From contig BDTS01000085.1 in assembly GCA_002897915.1 (NCBI GenBank), positions 1 to 39,289 of the forward strand: 39,289 nt of DNA, read 5' to 3'. Positions 2,243 through 15,114 of this stretch are shown here, one piece after another; positions within the stretch are counted from its first letter, which is position 1; the number at the start of each line of letters is the position of its first letter. This DNA comes from a bacterium BMS3Bbin09. Its GTDB lineage: Bacteria > Nitrospirota > Thermodesulfovibrionia > UBA6902. The translations under genes and the position numbers were made by a program. The notes under the pieces are model-generated. The model had not been told where the DNA came from. It did no database searches and saw only the letters and a program-made list of their open reading frames with translations.

Positions 2243-2851
2243 TTACAAAAGCTTGCCCTGGTCGTCTTCTGATTCAAACAATGTGTCTTGCCTTGATTGT
2301 TTGGTTTTAGCTATTTCTTCCCATTTACTGGAAAACTCTGTATCTAATTGTTCCTGATATGTTTTGACTGAATCATCAAGTTTATCAATATTATTCATAG
2401 TAAGCACACGATAGAGCAGACTGCGATTCAGTAGAGGTAAAGGAATGCTTGTATTAACAGTAGCAGATCTTATCTTTCTGCATTCACTGCAATAGATGCT
2501 TGCAAAATGTTCTTTGTCGTGTACTTCTACAAAGTGCAGATCATCAATTGAGGAACATACAGAGCATGAAGGGAATATGCTTTCCGGTTCGGGATCGTCT
2601 GGAAAGTCTAATGATAGCTGTAGCTTATTTGTATCTTCGATCTTGCCCGGCCCGGTTCCATGCGTGAAGGCTTCTCCTGTGCGATATAAATCAAATAAAA
2701 GTGCCCTTTTGAAACGGTCTTCCTTTTTTATCCCGGCTTTTGATAATTTTTGATGTCCTTCATCAGTCAACTGAAAAGTTACAATACTGCCGCTGATTGA
2801 GGTAAGGACATAATATTTTTCTCTGTCTTTGTATTTATGCAATATGGGCAT
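2243..2851 (-). CDS. Unknown protein with zinc-ribbon-like CxxC pair
   Basis: A 202-aa protein I do not recognise. The N-terminal 60 residues (KYYVLTSISGSIVTFQLTDEG) are beta-rich. In the middle, SCSVCSSIDDLHFVEVHDKEHFASIYCSECRK has two CxxC pairs about 27 residues apart, consistent with a treble-clef or zinc-ribbon fold. The C-terminal 60 residues are helical and charged, ending in an acidic tail (FESEDDQGKLL). The start at 2851 has a GGAG about a dozen bases upstream. It lies alone between two toxin-antitoxin modules at the edge of the defence region, so a defence or nucleic-acid role is possible but not shown. Confidence 0.6.
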   Translation of the reverse strand: MPILHKYKDREKYYVLTSISGSIVTFQLTDEGHQKLSKAGIKKEDRFKRALLFDLYRTGEAFTHGTGPGKIEDTNKLQLSLDFPDDPEPESIFPSCSVCSSIDDLHFVEVHDKEHFASIYCSECRKIRSATVNTSIPLPLLNRSLLYRVLTMNNIDKLDDSVKTYQEQLDTEFSSKWEEIAKTKQSRQDTLFESEDDQGKLL

Positions 2852-9498: not shown

Positions 9499-12400
9499 TT
9501 ACTCTGACACCACAAACCAGGTGATTAAATCAAAATTGTCCAGTTTAAATTTATCTTCCAGCCTCTTTTCATTCGAAGACTTTTTCCTGGGGACACCATC
9601 TGTAAAAATACCCTGAATTTCATCAATGGCCTTTTTGGGCGCCTGCCCATCAATCCATGCCTTAATCTTGTCGCTTAACCACTGCAACGCTTCCTTATCT
9701 CCATTTTCAACATCATCAGGAACAAACCTGATCTTGTTTTTATGCTTTCTTAATATACATAGTATTTCCTGATTGTTATTGTAAGTAGAAAAACCTTTGT
9801 TATTGGAATAGAGCAAATGATACTCATTATATGTATGTGTGTCAGCGTCATCGGGCTTTTTGGGATAACCTAATAATGCAATTATGCCTTCCGGCAATTC
9901 AGTATATTTTTTGTCAGGTTCTGCTTTGAAGCCAGTAAATATGCCATTAGGCATTCCTTCAAAAATTTCTTTATTCTTCTGGAAAATATCGAATAATTCC
10001 TGTCTAAACTGCTCAAGGGACAGGTTATCCAGGCTAAGACTTTCATCGCTGGTCTCAACATCTTCCCATGTAAACTGCATTTGATTGAGCATTTTTTCAG
10101 TCTGTCTGGTGACTATTGGGTTGTTTTCAACAATCTTTTCAATTTCCGGCGTCATCTTCTCATCAATCTCAGCGCCAACCACAGACATGGCAGCCATCCG
10201 GTTTTCAACTCTTGCTTTGAGCCTGAGGTAGTCTTCATAATTTTTACCCGGCCAAAAATTTATCCCTTTAATGGTTTGATTGGGAGAGCCAAGACGGTCT
10301 ATACGTCCCATTCGCTGAATAATTCTGACTGGATTCCAATGTATATCGTAATTGATCACACAATCACAATCTTGTAGATTTTGGCCTTCACTTAAACAGT
10401 CCGTAGCTATCAAAATGTCCAAGGGCTCTTCTAATTTTTTCAAAGTATCAGGATCGTGCTTTTTTATGATATTCTTCCAGTCTTCAAAACTCTCCGGCTC
10501 TAATATGCCTTTTTCATCATATAAATAACTCCAATCTTTTTCTTTATACAATTTAGTGTATGGAGCAAAACGCTCTAAAATGCCCTCGAACTTTTTCCCA
10601 CTGTAGCCGTAATCTGTTTCGGATAATGAGCCTGACACGCAAGCAATATTGCAAAATCCTTCATTTATCAATTGGTTATATAAATACTGTGCAGTATCAG
10701 TAAAGACAGTAAACACTACCACTTTCTGGTTGTCTCGCTCTTTCCTTTTTTTCTTAATATGTTCAATTAATTTTTCTAATTTAATATCTTTTATTTTCTT
10801 TTCTTTCAGATTTTCTTCAAATATAACAAGATTTGACTTGAGGTTCTCCAGCCTTGCAATATCATCTTCCAGATGCCTCTTAAACATATCAATGTACCTG
10901 ATATCTGAAAGTTTAATAGGGTTCTTTTTCCCAAGGGTAAATTCTTCAAGCTGTTCTGTTTCATTGTCGGAGCCGGCAAACTCAACAGATGTTTCTTCAA
11001 GATCATCTTCGAAATTATTTTGCTCTGATATTTCATCTTCAAGAACAGTGTCTTCTTTTGCATCTATAAAGTCATTAACTTTCTGCAAAGCGTTAGTGTG
11101 ATGGTCATAAATATTGTTTACTGTATTTCTAAATGAATACCAGCTTGATTCAAGACGCTTCATCAAGAGAATGTACATCATCTTGACCAGAAAACCCTCA
11201 CGCTGGACCTCATCTTTCAATACACTTTCAGGTGTTATTTTTTCTGTATATTTATGTGGCATATATGCAATGAGGTTAATCGACTCAATTGCGTTTAACA
11301 ACTCCTCAAAAGACTTTAAGTTGCCAATGTTTTCAGGATTAATATATTCATTCTCAGGATCTTCTTTTTTAGGAAATGACATGCCGCCAAACTCACTCTC
11401 TATCAACTTCCTTGTTCTTGCAACAATCAATGCATCCGTAAGAGAAAAGAACTTTTGTGGCAGCATCTGAATAAAGTCGCTGATTTTTCTGTTCTCTTTT
11501 TCCTGCCATGATTTGAAATCTTTTTGAGCTGTCCGGAATATGCTTTCTAAACTACCGATTTCGAGGTTTGTCTCTTTGAACCCATTGTCATGCCCTTTTA
11601 CGATCAATTTGAATTGGTTTCTTACATCAATCAGTTTATTGTTTATTGGTGTAGCAGACAGTTGTAATACCTTTACTTCCTTATTTTTCCGTAAGATATT
11701 TTCAACCAGAAATTTGTAGCGGGAAGATTTATCATTTCGCAGATTGTGACTTTCATCAATTACAACTAACAGTTTTGGATTGCCCTGAAAGAATGTCTTT
11801 ATCTTATAGCCATCCTGATATGACTCTAATCTGTCATCCTGTAAATCAGTATGATAACGAATCGTATACTTCAATCTGTCTCTTTCAAATTTTGAAAGAT
11901 GTCCTTCAAGATATTGTCTCCAGTTAGCATCCAGTTTCTTCGGGCAGAACAAGATTATCCTGTACCCTTTTATTTCAAAATACTTCATAACGGCCAGGGC
12001 AGTCCATGTTTTGCCTAATCCCACTGCATCAGCCAGAATAGCACCGTCATTTTTTTGAAGCATTTTAATAAGACTGATTACACCCGTTTTCTGGAAGGGA
12101 TAGAGGATTTTATAAATACCAGTATCCTCTAAATGACTTATCTCTTTATTAAATTCAGGATCAAGCGACAGTGATAATAAGTCCTCTTTAAAGAGCTCAT
12201 ACAGCACCTTGTAATAAAGTTGGAAAGGAGTGTATTTGCTATACAGGTCTTGAATGAGAGTGATGATATGTTCTTTAACACTTACTTTAGACTTGTCAGG
12301 TAGTTCGATATTCCCTAAAGTATCTTTGCTTTTCCACAGATCACTGAACCATTGAGTCAACTCCTTGAAATCGTTATCATTACCAGTACCTGCTGAATTT

Positions 12401-12858
12401 AATTCAATATTACCAGACTCTCTTATTCCTAACCCTGCATCGGTTAAATTGGAACTGCCTATAACGTGGAAATTCTTACGGGGGTCAGGATCATGGTACA
12501 TATAGGTCTTAGCATGGCAAAAACTTCGTTGAATAGTTTTGACCTGGACTTTTTCCTGCCGTAGAAAATCAACGGCCTTTTTTGCTGACTGATTAAGATT
12601 TAATACTTGGGTAACACCTAGAGTGTCGCTTAGAAGATTTATAATCTTATCATGTTGATTGTCCTCATTAAGTAAATTACCGAGTACCAGGCGAAATCTT
12701 TCAGTATCATTCATCTCGTCCATTACCCTGGCAAGTGCATTGACAGAAAAATATCCGGTAACTATATCAACTTTTCCCTGCTCGATATAGTTACGTAAGA
12801 AGCCATATACAGTCGAGTACTCGTTGTCTTCAGTTTTTGTTTTGTTATCCAACAGCAT
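9499..12858 (-). CDS. PLD-nuclease / SNF2-family helicase fusion, putative restriction motor
   Basis: A 1119-aa protein. Residues 1-180 form a phospholipase-D-like domain with one HKD-type motif (CHAKTYMYHD, His115/Lys117, followed by GSSNLTDAGLG). Such domains cut DNA in NgoAVII/CglI-type restriction enzymes and DISARM DrmC. Residues about 250-420 are SF2 helicase domain 1: Q-like YPFQKTGV, Walker A ADAVGLGKT, DESH box VIDESHN, motif III SATP. Helicase domain 2 follows: KVVVFTVFTDTAQYL, LIATDCLSEGQNLQDCD and motif VI RIIQRMGRIDRLGS. A helical, acidic insertion (EDEISEQNNFEDDLEETSVEF) separates the two. The ATG has a GAGG upstream. It is the first gene of the cassette DUF4062-methylase-EVE and is the likely DNA-translocating nuclease (inference). 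Composition is AT-rich compared with the housekeeping genes. Confidence 0.88.
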   Translation of the reverse strand: MLLDNKTKTEDNEYSTVYGFLRNYIEQGKVDIVTGYFSVNALARVMDEMNDTERFRLVLGNLLNEDNQHDKIINLLSDTLGVTQVLNLNQSAKKAVDFLRQEKVQVKTIQRSFCHAKTYMYHDPDPRKNFHVIGSSNLTDAGLGIRESGNIELNSAGTGNDNDFKELTQWFSDLWKSKDTLGNIELPDKSKVSVKEHIITLIQDLYSKYTPFQLYYKVLYELFKEDLLSLSLDPEFNKEISHLEDTGIYKILYPFQKTGVISLIKMLQKNDGAILADAVGLGKTWTALAVMKYFEIKGYRIILFCPKKLDANWRQYLEGHLSKFERDRLKYTIRYHTDLQDDRLESYQDGYKIKTFFQGNPKLLVVIDESHNLRNDKSSRYKFLVENILRKNKEVKVLQLSATPINNKLIDVRNQFKLIVKGHDNGFKETNLEIGSLESIFRTAQKDFKSWQEKENRKISDFIQMLPQKFFSLTDALIVARTRKLIESEFGGMSFPKKEDPENEYINPENIGNLKSFEELLNAIESINLIAYMPHKYTEKITPESVLKDEVQREGFLVKMMYILLMKRLESSWYSFRNTVNNIYDHHTNALQKVNDFIDAKEDTVLEDEISEQNNFEDDLEETSVEFAGSDNETEQLEEFTLGKKNPIKLSDIRYIDMFKRHLEDDIARLENLKSNLVIFEENLKEKKIKDIKLEKLIEHIKKKRKERDNQKVVVFTVFTDTAQYLYNQLINEGFCNIACVSGSLSETDYGYSGKKFEGILERFAPYTKLYKEKDWSYLYDEKGILEPESFEDWKNIIKKHDPDTLKKLEEPLDILIATDCLSEGQNLQDCDCVINYDIHWNPVRIIQRMGRIDRLGSPNQTIKGINFWPGKNYEDYLRLKARVENRMAAMSVVGAEIDEKMTPEIEKIVENNPIVTRQTEKMLNQMQFTWEDVETSDESLSLDNLSLEQFRQELFDIFQKNKEIFEGMPNGIFTGFKAEPDKKYTELPEGIIALLGYPKKPDDADTHTYNEYHLLYSNNKGFSTYNNNQEILCILRKHKNKIRFVPDDVENGDKEALQWLSDKIKAWIDGQAPKKAIDEIQGIFTDGVPRKKSSNEKRLEDKFKLDNFDLITWFVVSE

Positions 12859-12950
12859 TAGTTATTAATTCCTCAGAAAAGATAAAAATATAGTTTACCC
12901 CTATGAATCAAAGATCATCCATTTTAACGGAAAACCGGGATGTTCGGCAA

Positions 12951-12988
12951 GAAAATATCGTAGGGGTGTGAAAATATCGTAGGGGCGT
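12951..12988. repeat. 19-bp direct duplication with GTAGGGG core
   Basis: GAAAATATCGTAGGGGTGT (12951-12969) is immediately repeated as GAAAATATCGTAGGGGCGT with one mismatch. The second copy continues as GTAGGGGCGTATTGC..TGCCC, an eroded member of the dispersed GTAGGGGC palindrome family. It lies in the 200-base gap between the HIRAN and helicase genes; no gene or clear promoter is seen there. Confidence 0.6.
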
Positions 12989-13058: not shown

Positions 13059-13424
13059 TTAAACCCTCAATTCAACCGCAACCCCCACCCTCTCATTCGG
13101 GCTTCCTTCCTCCCTGATCCCGCTTATCCGGGCCTTAACATCCACACCCTTATCCATCAGCTGGGCAATAACCATATTATCGGAACGGGGAAGGTAGCCA
13201 ATCTTCTCGTTTTCGTGGTATATCTCGACGGCGTCGTAGTCGAAGGGGTTTCCGGGTTCTCTCTTGAGGTCAAGGGACCTGCCGGGTTCGAGTTTTTTCC
13301 ATATCTCTTCACCACTGTAATACCGGAAACCGGCTACAGAGGAATCAAGCAGTAATATGTTTTTTTTGTGGGCGGGTCTTGTTGCTGCCGGAACGATCAA
13401 TCCGAGGACTCTTCTTCTTTTCAT
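13059..13424 (-). CDS. Stand-alone HIRAN-domain protein
   Basis: The track ORF reaches 13616, but its first 64 residues translate dispersed repeats. I take the ATG at 13424, eight bases after GGAGG, giving 121 aa. AGFRYYSGEEIWKKLEPGRSLDLKREPGNPFDYDAVEIYHENEKIGYLPRSDNMVIAQLMDKGVDVKARI is a complete HIRAN domain: G..F......W..L..G..L.L.REP.NP.D..AV.I......IGY.PR. HIRAN domains bind DNA ends or stalled forks and are often fused to SNF2 helicases (Rad5/HLTF). Here the domain is separate but encoded just upstream of a SNF2-type helicase gene on the same strand, so it may be a DNA-recognition partner of the cassette (inference). Confidence 0.85.
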   Translation of the reverse strand: MKRRRVLGLIVPAATRPAHKKNILLLDSSVAGFRYYSGEEIWKKLEPGRSLDLKREPGNPFDYDAVEIYHENEKIGYLPRSDNMVIAQLMDKGVDVKARISGIREEGSPNERVGVAVELRV

Positions 13425-13499
13425 TGTTACCTCCAGGTTTAAATTTACCTGTATAGTAAACCATGCACTATGCCATATGATGTCATAGTGGATCGAGTG

Positions 13500-13539
13500 C
13501 AAAAGAGCAATAGTGCAATAGTGCAATAGTTCAAAAGTA
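13500..13539. repeat. Five tandem 8-bp units (CAATAGTG type)
   Basis: CAAAAGAG, CAATAGTG, CAATAGTG, CAATAGTT and CAAAAGTA follow each other without gaps and run into a GTAGGGGC palindrome. A degenerate version of the same arrangement is at 26835-26878. Its translation produced a false N-terminal extension of the HIRAN ORF. Confidence 0.7.
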
Positions 13540-13634
13540 GGGGCAGGTCCCTGCGCCTGCCCTTGTAGGGGCGAGGTTGCCTCGCCCTGTGGATATGTCT
13601 GCCCACGTAGGGGCACGGCATGCCGTGCCCCTAC
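13537..13634. repeat. Three GTAGGGGC palindromic repeat copies
   Basis: Copies begin at 13537 (core AGG..CCT), 13565 (core GAGG-TTG-CCTC) and 13607. The last is a perfect 28-bp palindrome, GTAGGGGCACGGCA and its complement, ending at 13634 just past the WYL gene stop region. Each can form a hairpin; the outer bases are constant and the core varies but stays self-complementary. They separate the WYL and HIRAN genes and could act as transcription attenuators. Confidence 0.75.
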
Positions 13635-13637
13635 ATT

Positions 13638-14609
13638 TCAATCATATATCTTCCCCATCTTCTTTATCTCATTCTTCACTTCATCGGCAAGCGCCTTCGG
13701 CGAAACCACCTTCACGTCAGGACCGTGGCTCAATATCCTCTTTGTCAGTTCATTGAAGTCAGCGGCAGGGAAGCTGAGTTCGAGTGCCCCGTCCTTTTTG
13801 AGAACGAGTTTCTGTTCAGGGTGCCAGATCTGTTCCTCTATCCAGTCCGCGACTGAAGGAGAGAACCTCAGGCAGACCTTACGGGTCTTCCCTCCCTGCA
13901 TTATCCCGAAGTGTTTACGGGTATATTCCTTTACAGGCGGCAGGCCGTCCGGAAGACGGATGTTCTCATCTGAAAAAGCTATGGACCTGACCCTCGACAG
14001 GGCAAAGTCCCTCATATCATTTCGCAATGAACAGAAGGCGATCAGGTGCCAGCTTCCCATGTACTGCACCAGATGAAGGGGCAGGATGTTCCTCTCTGTT
14101 TCTTTTTTTGAATGAGGTGAATAATATGAGATGGAGATAGGCGTTTCCTGAAAGAGCGCGTTAACTATGGAGTGAAAGTCTTCTTCATTGACGCGTGAGT
14201 ACTCAACATTCTTTACCGATATCTTTTCGGACATCTCCCGGATATCGGGTCTCGATCCATGATCACTGACATTGAAGACCTTCCCGATAAAATCATAGAG
14301 TTCATCCTTTATCCGCGTATCAGGGATGGTAGAGGCGAGCCGGACAGCAAGGGCAAAAGAGATGACGCTCTCTTCACTGTACCATTGGGACGGAAGCTCG
14401 TATGAATCATCGGTATAATAATATCCCTTTCTGGTGTGATCATACTCAAGCGGGGCCTTCAGCCTGTCCCTTATAAAATCGAGCTCACGCTGGGCAGTGC
14501 GGGGGGATATCTCAAATCTCTCGGCAAGGTGGCGCGCGTTCGGATATTTAGAGGCCTTTACCCTGTCATGAAACCAGAGGAACCTCTCATATTTAAGCCT
14601 CTCTCCCAT
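13638..14609 (-). CDS. WYL-domain transcriptional regulator (DeoR/HTH_11 type)
   Basis: A 323-aa regulator. The N-terminal HTH is [29 protein letters not shown] (about 22-50), followed by [20 protein letters not shown], the usual connector. The WYL domain (about 160-230) has [53 protein letters not shown], in which the canonical W-Y-L triad is varied (GSWHLIAF). The WCX extension follows ([43 protein letters not shown]). WYL proteins bind nucleotides or nucleic acids and many repress phage-defence operons (BrxR, CapW). It starts four bases after the purE stop, so it can be co-transcribed with pur genes, yet it also lies directly upstream of the HIRAN/helicase cassette, its most likely target (inference). 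Confidence 0.88.
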
Positions 14610-14613
14610 CTAT

Positions 14614-15114
14614 CTATGAAAAATTTTCCTCAACCTTCTTCGCTTTTCTTACTACCTCGGCAGCCATCTTCTTTTTGAATGCCTTAAGCGCAATAGCGAT
14701 CTTTTTATCGCTGAGCCCTATGATCTGGGCGGCCAATATACCGGCATTCTTTGCGCCGCTTTTTCCCACAGCCATCGTGGCAACAGGGATGCCGGGCGGC
14801 ATCTGTACTGTTGCAAATAGGGCATCCACTCCCTCTAAAGGCGAGGAGTCTATTGGTACGCCTACTACCGGAAGTATTGTATGCGCGGCAACCACACCCG
14901 CAAGATGCGCGGAAGCGCCTGCTCCGGCAATGATCACCTGAACTCCGCCTTTTTCCGCATCCCTTATAAGTTTAACTGTCCTCTCAGGGGTTCTGTGCGC
15001 GGAAGATACGGTCATGTAATACGATATCTTGAAATCATCCAGCATTTTTGCAGCTGCCTTCATTATTGGCAGATCCGAATCACTACCCATAAGAATCAAT
15101 ACTTTCACTTTCAT
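14614..15114 (-). CDS. purE: N5-carboxyaminoimidazole ribonucleotide mutase
   Basis: A 166-aa class I PurE that converts N5-CAIR to CAIR in purine synthesis. [13 protein letters not shown] is the nucleotide-phosphate loop, [10 protein letters not shown] holds the catalytic histidine, and [28 protein letters not shown] and [14 protein letters not shown] are near-invariant family blocks. The length is typical. It is the last pur gene of the run purH-purD-purE on the minus strand, 43 bases after purD. A PurK partner is not in the window. Confidence 0.95.

Follow-up and report, generated by a model that had tools for sequence, protein, structure and literature searches.

A contig of 39,289 nt from the bacterium BMS3Bbin09 (Nitrospirota; BDTS01000085.1, in its full length called the window in the following) carries the genes for a free-standing HIRAN protein and a WYL regulator between purE and the gene for a PLD-SNF2 helicase. 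This arrangement raises the question whether the two genes are part of the helicase cassette or form a unit of their own, and which promoters the WYL protein controls. A sequence-only reading had suggested that HIRAN may serve the helicase as a detached sensor of DNA ends and that WYL may be the switch of the cassette. HIRAN (121 aa) and WYL (323 aa) are real genes upstream of the helicase and on its strand, as judged from Pfam matches and coordinates, and the distance of 4 nt between purE and WYL given there was confirmed. The gaps between WYL and HIRAN and between HIRAN and the helicase gene are 213 nt and 200 nt, respectively. All features are listed in Table 1.

Table 1. Position and assignment of features around the WYL and HIRAN genes (window coordinates)
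Feature	Position	Strand	Basis
HIRAN-domain protein, 121 aa	13059..13424	-	PF08797
wHTH-WYL-WCX transcription factor, 323 aa	13638..14609	-	PF13280 + PF25583
purE, closing the purine cluster of the chromosome that carries WYL at its end	14614..15114	-	AIRC, E 1.6e-59; synteny with G010 C176
PLD-SNF2 helicase, neighbouring cassette, outside the module	9499..12858	-	PADLOC 'HKD+Snf2', E 1.1e-79
Candidate WYL operator, 25-bp dyad CACTATGACA-TCATA-TGGCATAGTG	13466..13490	-	conservation before HIRAN (five genomes)
-10-like TACTAT, 7 nt after the dyad	13453..13458	-	TAnnAT at +7 in 11/12 dyad sites
Probable own promoter of the cassette, ATTTTCTTG ... TAAAAT	12921..12956	-	conserved upstream of helicase orthologs; approximate cassette border

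The WYL-HIRAN pair and the dyad upstream of HIRAN

WYL followed by HIRAN, in the same order and on the same strand, was found in five other genomes (G007, G002, G018, G060 and G418, in the last of which stops disrupt HIRAN in the assembly). In G010 the two genes lie at facing contig ends that do not overlap, and we infer their junction. In the window genome (G000) a single HIRAN gene was found, the copy in Table 1; our survey of genome contigs for HIRAN returned only 8 loci due to its strict peptide pattern. In a tree of 37 WYL proteins a fully supported clade of 17 comprises all seven HIRAN-linked and five of the six cas-linked members, the HIRAN-linked ones falling into two subclades. Three members of this clade (G381, G263, G210) stop at contig edges, with their neighbours beyond the edge out of view. 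We consider WYL-HIRAN a separate two-gene module whose place behind the purine genes does not depend on the cassette, and this forms part of the main reading given below.

A dyad of the form YACTAYGACA-N5-TGACATAGTG is present upstream of HIRAN in G000, G007, G010, G018 and at both HIRAN copies of G002. Within one sequence, the probability that such a dyad arises by chance is only moderately low (P 0.0045, mononucleotide shuffling), and the case for it therefore rests on its conservation and on a fixed spacing to the -10 region. A score matrix was built from five of the HIRAN-upstream sites, leaving the TAnnAT position outside the matrix, and used to scan 1.6 Mb of loci. Further strong sites appeared in loci of the WYL clade only: before Bro-N/cas3 in G287, at three positions downstream of WYL in G388 (one of them before the type I-G cas3) and ahead of WYL in G381. 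Scanning of genomes gave one more site in G381, located before Bro-N. Of the 12 sites, 11 have a TAnnAT box that starts exactly 7 nt after the dyad, the exception being the site ahead of WYL in G381 (C159). Since the six sites upstream of HIRAN are homologous, it is G287, the Bro-N site of G381 and the three sites of G388 that support the spacing independently.

The genomes G000, G007 and G018 each have one match to the dyad, which is located before HIRAN. With up to two mismatches the dyad was seen in WYL-clade genomes only and not once in eight genomes that lack this WYL; a clear site was not found in the clade members G255, G293, G195 and G174. A dyad with one mismatch on contig C67 of G002 falls within an flhB-like coding region and was taken as chance. 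A sigma-70 scan detected no promoter before HIRAN, and there is no TTGACA at 17 nt from its -10 box. WYL is the presumed binding protein of the dyad; some of the loci also encode Bro-N, KilA-N or ORF6N proteins, which could be the binders instead. REP-like GTAGGGGC palindromes were rejected as operator, as they are dispersed (seven in the window). The interval between WYL and HIRAN contains such palindromes together with a tandem octamer, AGTGCAAT (5.4 copies, 13496-13538), the exact doubled form of which occurs in none of the other loci examined.

The WYL protein as activator or repressor

The WYL protein matches PF13280 (E 1.2e-18) and the WCX family PF25583 (E 5.2e-16), both over the cut-off, and shows a weak match to HTH_11 (E 0.0055). 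Its best solved relative in a profile search is PafBC (6sj9, E 8.4e-25); DriD (8tp8) ranks among the other WYL proteins, and BrxR and CapW give weaker matches than PafBC. The F-R-L-x-R motif of PafB/PafC reads F-A-L-S-R in the window protein, which replaces one of two ssDNA-binding arginines by alanine, the others being conserved. An AlphaFold model was set aside due to a mean pLDDT of 51 and a shallow alignment.

The window protein has the same wHTH-WYL-WCX layout as Caulobacter DriD and mycobacterial SiwR, which are homodimeric activators in genotoxic stress. DriD activates from sites overlapping the -35 region and does not act on its own gene (PMC12340889), and the palindrome of SiwR is located upstream of the -10 region of a neighbouring operon (PMC10693628). 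The candidate site described here is likewise palindromic and placed at the -35 region of the neighbouring operon; no such dyad precedes WYL in the window, and in the other genomes the WYL gene mostly lacks a site as well. The candidate targets differ from those of DriD and SiwR, being HIRAN and type I cas operons. PafBC, which is activated by ssDNA (PMC11804915), resembles the window protein most among solved structures and has its regulator element near the -10 region of the target promoter. It is, however, a heterodimer recognizing a non-palindromic motif, whereas we find one gene, a dyad and the loss of one ssDNA-contact arginine.

Starting from what is directly observed, namely the genes and their order, their co-occurrence, and the dyad with its spacing, we favour the following reading, to which we assign a probability of about 0.6. 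WYL most likely binds the 25-bp dyad, which would stand in for the -35 element of the HIRAN promoter; the position of the dyad fits activation. Upon binding of a nucleic-acid ligand to its WYL domain, probably ssDNA as in the precedents DriD and PafBC, the regulator would turn on HIRAN, and HIRAN would next bind 3′ ends of ssDNA. Defence operons would become attached to this controller: as the same promoter element precedes type I CRISPR-Cas operons in relatives, the module is best read as responsive to damage or invasion. It is by analogy to the known systems that we infer both activation instead of repression and ssDNA as the ligand.

The most serious rival, though clearly the less probable one, is that WYL acts like BrxR and CapW, the WYL repressors of defence islands, with the dyad as an operator from which it is released by infection or damage. 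Here, too, WYL lies beside defence genes, and the 10-bp arms and 5-bp spacer of the dyad are similar to the 11-bp inverted repeats with 5-bp spacer that are bound by BrxR (PMC9122601). It is this common spacer that keeps repression a real rival, but the BrxR repeats are located downstream of the -10 region, between it and the regulator's own gene, and the dyad is found before the -10 region, where a -35 element would be. The lack of TTGACA at 17 nt, the lack of a site at the WYL gene itself in most genomes, the greater distance in sequence to BrxR and CapW, and an activator as closest solved relative all speak against a repressor. In total, the architecture looks more like that of the activators DriD and SiwR than that of BrxR.

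The suggestion that WYL is the switch of the helicase cassette holds in kind, in that WYL seems to be a local switch of defence genes. It does not hold for the target, since candidate sites precede HIRAN and, in relatives, type I CRISPR-Cas genes and the genome scan found none before the helicase in the window genome, nor for the implied repression, since the protein is more activator-like. A function of WYL for purE was considered and set aside: among the loci read WYL closely follows purE only in G000 and G010.

HIRAN, its Tat-like relatives and CRISPR-Cas neighbours

The HIRAN gene starts with an ATG at 13424 that is preceded by GGAGG. PF08797 matches residues 26-120 of the 121 aa (E 3.7e-18; 65.6 bits versus a gathering score of 24.7). 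The AF2 model has a mean pLDDT of 81 and is good across the domain; Foldseek aligned it to a free-standing bacterial HIRAN (3k2y, TM 0.72) and to the DNA-bound HIRAN domain of HLTF (4s0n, TM 0.62). The window protein thus shares the HIRAN fold and the NP[YF]D core with HLTF/Rad5 and lp_0118 (3k2y), and it differs from HLTF/Rad5 by the absence of a fused helicase and by relatives with a Tat-like N-terminus. HLTF requires N90 and N91 for DNA binding (PMC4666394); the equivalent of N91 is the invariant N59, that of N90 is Gly in the window. By analogy to HLTF, the window HIRAN may well bind DNA ends (3′ ends of ssDNA). The sequence-only reading described HIRAN as normally fused to SNF2 helicases, which goes too far for bacteria, since free-standing forms exist in them, such as lp_0118 or those of HipA/diDNase clusters (PMC11706625). 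An assignment to PADLOC PDC-M03B (about 250 aa, HIRAN in the C-terminal half) was rejected, as the 121-aa protein matches only profile positions 128-228 of 250.

All 12 HIRAN relatives, including those of Aquificota and a Pelagibacterium plasmid protein, start with RR-x-phi-phi and an uncharged stretch of 12-19 residues. The full rule applies to none of the 17 other HIRANs used as controls; these include proteins from viral contigs, in which only distant HIRANs without Tat-like starts were detected. Among about 619 other ORFs, two passed a similar rule. TatC was found in 10 of 11 genomes, and the one without it is 80% complete. Profile models for Tat signals barely respond: Pfam TAT_signal matches one protein weakly (E 0.045) and NCBIfam is silent. 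The Tat-like signal of the relatives predicts export or membrane anchoring of HIRAN. The N-terminus of the window protein, MKRRRVLGLIVPAAT, is a shortened form of this signal with an uncharged stretch of 10 residues only, too short to rely on, and for this copy export is therefore doubtful.

In two Aquificota genomes the Tat-like HIRAN gene is located between a phosphatase-like gene and htpX (L068 10001-10378, L171 1524-1901), with no cas or WYL gene in the stretch read. G496 has a truncated Tat-like copy (L172 7378-7599). The search of plasmids returned one Tat-like HIRAN, that of Pelagibacterium, directly downstream of a manganese catalase gene (L175 5911-6315); neither WYL nor cas genes are annotated within the 12 kb shown.

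Several WYL and HIRAN genes adjoin CRISPR-Cas operons. Two contigs of G018 overlap by 119 identical bp and give the order WYL-HIRAN-ORF6N-cas3-cas5c. On contig C71 of G002, a complete I-C locus begins with the second HIRAN copy and has the order HIRAN-BroN-cas3-cas5c-cas8c-cas7c-cas4-cas1-cas2-array, in which cas8c, cas7c, cas4 and cas2 were named from reading the ORFs. The same locus (L059 8804-18646) contains a 200-aa ORF with the look of a four-helix bundle between cas7c and cas4. The type I-B operons of G060 and G148 have HIRAN in first or second place, with an overlap of 4 bp between HIRAN and cas6; the cas6 of G148 was named by its similarity to the G060 gene. In G287, G195, G174 and G159, cas genes are adjacent to a WYL gene without HIRAN, and in G388 a type I-G cas3 follows further downstream of WYL. 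Adjacency of WYL to cas genes (6 of about 37 loci) is thus found in a minority. The type I-B cas operon of G148 also includes DUF6922/AbiEii-like nucleotidyltransferase genes (L083 2591-3736), and similar-looking genes adjoin WYL in G036 (L055 1291-2823). In the window genome, cas1-cas2 are located on another contig (C8) beside a reverse transcriptase gene, which lies directly upstream (L228 929-3224).

WYL regulators at CRISPR loci are already known, among them sll7009 of a type I-D system, and the WYL-wHTH genes at type I loci described here resemble them (Makarova 2014, PMC4012209). That study does not mention HIRAN at all, and it describes neither a HIRAN gene in second place nor an operator common to HIRAN and cas operons. 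A search of mostly open-access literature found no report of the HIRAN domain together with CRISPR and cas3 or with twin-arginine signals, and no description of WYL-HIRAN-cas loci, the 25-bp operator or a Tat-like HIRAN.

We regard it as unlikely that HIRAN is a CRISPR accessory, binding for example 3′ ends of Cas3 products or prespacers, that was orphaned in the window. Its place as first gene of a complete I-C operon and as first or second gene of I-B operons, there in translational overlap with cas6, would suit such a role. However, the pair is kept in G007 and G010, in which cas1 was not found, so that CRISPR is not an obligate partner; a Cas3 like that of G018 was not found in G000, G007 and G010 either. 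The Aquificota HIRAN surroundings also speak against an accessory, and a Tat-like signal is unsuited to a cytoplasmic one. Less likely still is an extended form of our favoured reading, in which an ssDNA-triggered WYL activator would control both type I CRISPR-Cas operons and a Tat-exported HIRAN that would catch 3′ ends of DNA in the periplasm or at the membrane, e.g., of incoming phage or transforming DNA, and would thereby place adaptive immunity under the control of damage or DNA entry.

The helicase cassette

HIRAN and WYL are outside the helicase cassette. Orthologs of the helicase (85-92% identity) occur in seven others of 61 related genomes (G017, G033, G016, G040, G029, G036, G004). 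None of the seven has HIRAN or WYL beside the helicase gene, its neighbours being DUF4062 and/or Eco57I genes; a more distant WYL of G036 is encoded on a separate contig from the helicase ortholog. This kind of HIRAN is found in another set of genomes (G002, G007, G010, G018, G060). Apart from the window genome, the genomes with the WYL-HIRAN pair lack this helicase, as judged from the genomes surveyed first. Neighbourhood conservation of HIRAN with this helicase, proposed as a check of the sensor function, is thus absent. In G010 the block murI-rph-radC-purH-purD-purE-WYL is syntenic to the window and a helicase ortholog is lacking: WYL is kept next to purE without the cassette, and the same probably applies to HIRAN at the facing contig end.

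The GC content of the helicase gene (36.5%) is lower than that of HIRAN (50.0%), WYL (49.0%) and purE (48.5%), DUF4062 with 51.5% being an exception within the cassette. Upstream of the helicase gene, the window and four orthologs at other chromosomal sites have ATTTTCTTG without variation and, after it, a box similar to TAAAAT. As these elements are common to five chromosomal sites, the cassette probably has its own promoter, with a border near 12956. A lower-GC insertion with a promoter of its own is how we describe the cassette in the main reading, at the confidence stated for it. The PLD-SNF2/DUF4062/Eco57I cassette (window 9499-12956) occurs in the seven related genomes at chromosomal positions unrelated to each other, for example behind purF or near ubiE, and looks like a mobile defence cassette. 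A 202-aa ORF without Pfam match (window 2243-2851) shares 73% identity with an ORF of G033 (L061 4106-4723) that lies at a distance of about 4 kb from its helicase gene and is a possible, as yet unnamed, component of the cassette.

These observations leave little room for HIRAN as the helicase's detached DNA-end sensor and WYL as repressor of the whole cassette. Both genes share the strand of the helicase, and since no terminator was found on this strand in the gap after HIRAN, read-through into the helicase gene is possible in the window genome. Against this stand the missing co-occurrence outside the window in either direction, the helicase promoter that is common to orthologs elsewhere, the break in GC content between helicase and HIRAN, and the position of the genome's only WYL-type site before HIRAN. 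It is similarly improbable that WYL and HIRAN are unrelated passengers behind purE without joint function, as two separate WYL subclades retain the gene order across families and a conserved promoter element lies between the genes, even though the gap separating them holds REP-like palindromes and a terminator-like stem.

For the two genes, a false association with the helicase is thus replaced by a testable regulon, characterized by a 25-bp site with fixed spacing to the -10 region before HIRAN and before I-C and I-G CRISPR operons. If HIRAN proteins carry an export signal, the assumption that they act on chromosomal DNA only would no longer hold. If WYL indeed activates on ssDNA, CRISPR-Cas would be turned on by a signal of the DNA-damage type, which bears on the question when CRISPR-Cas systems are expressed.
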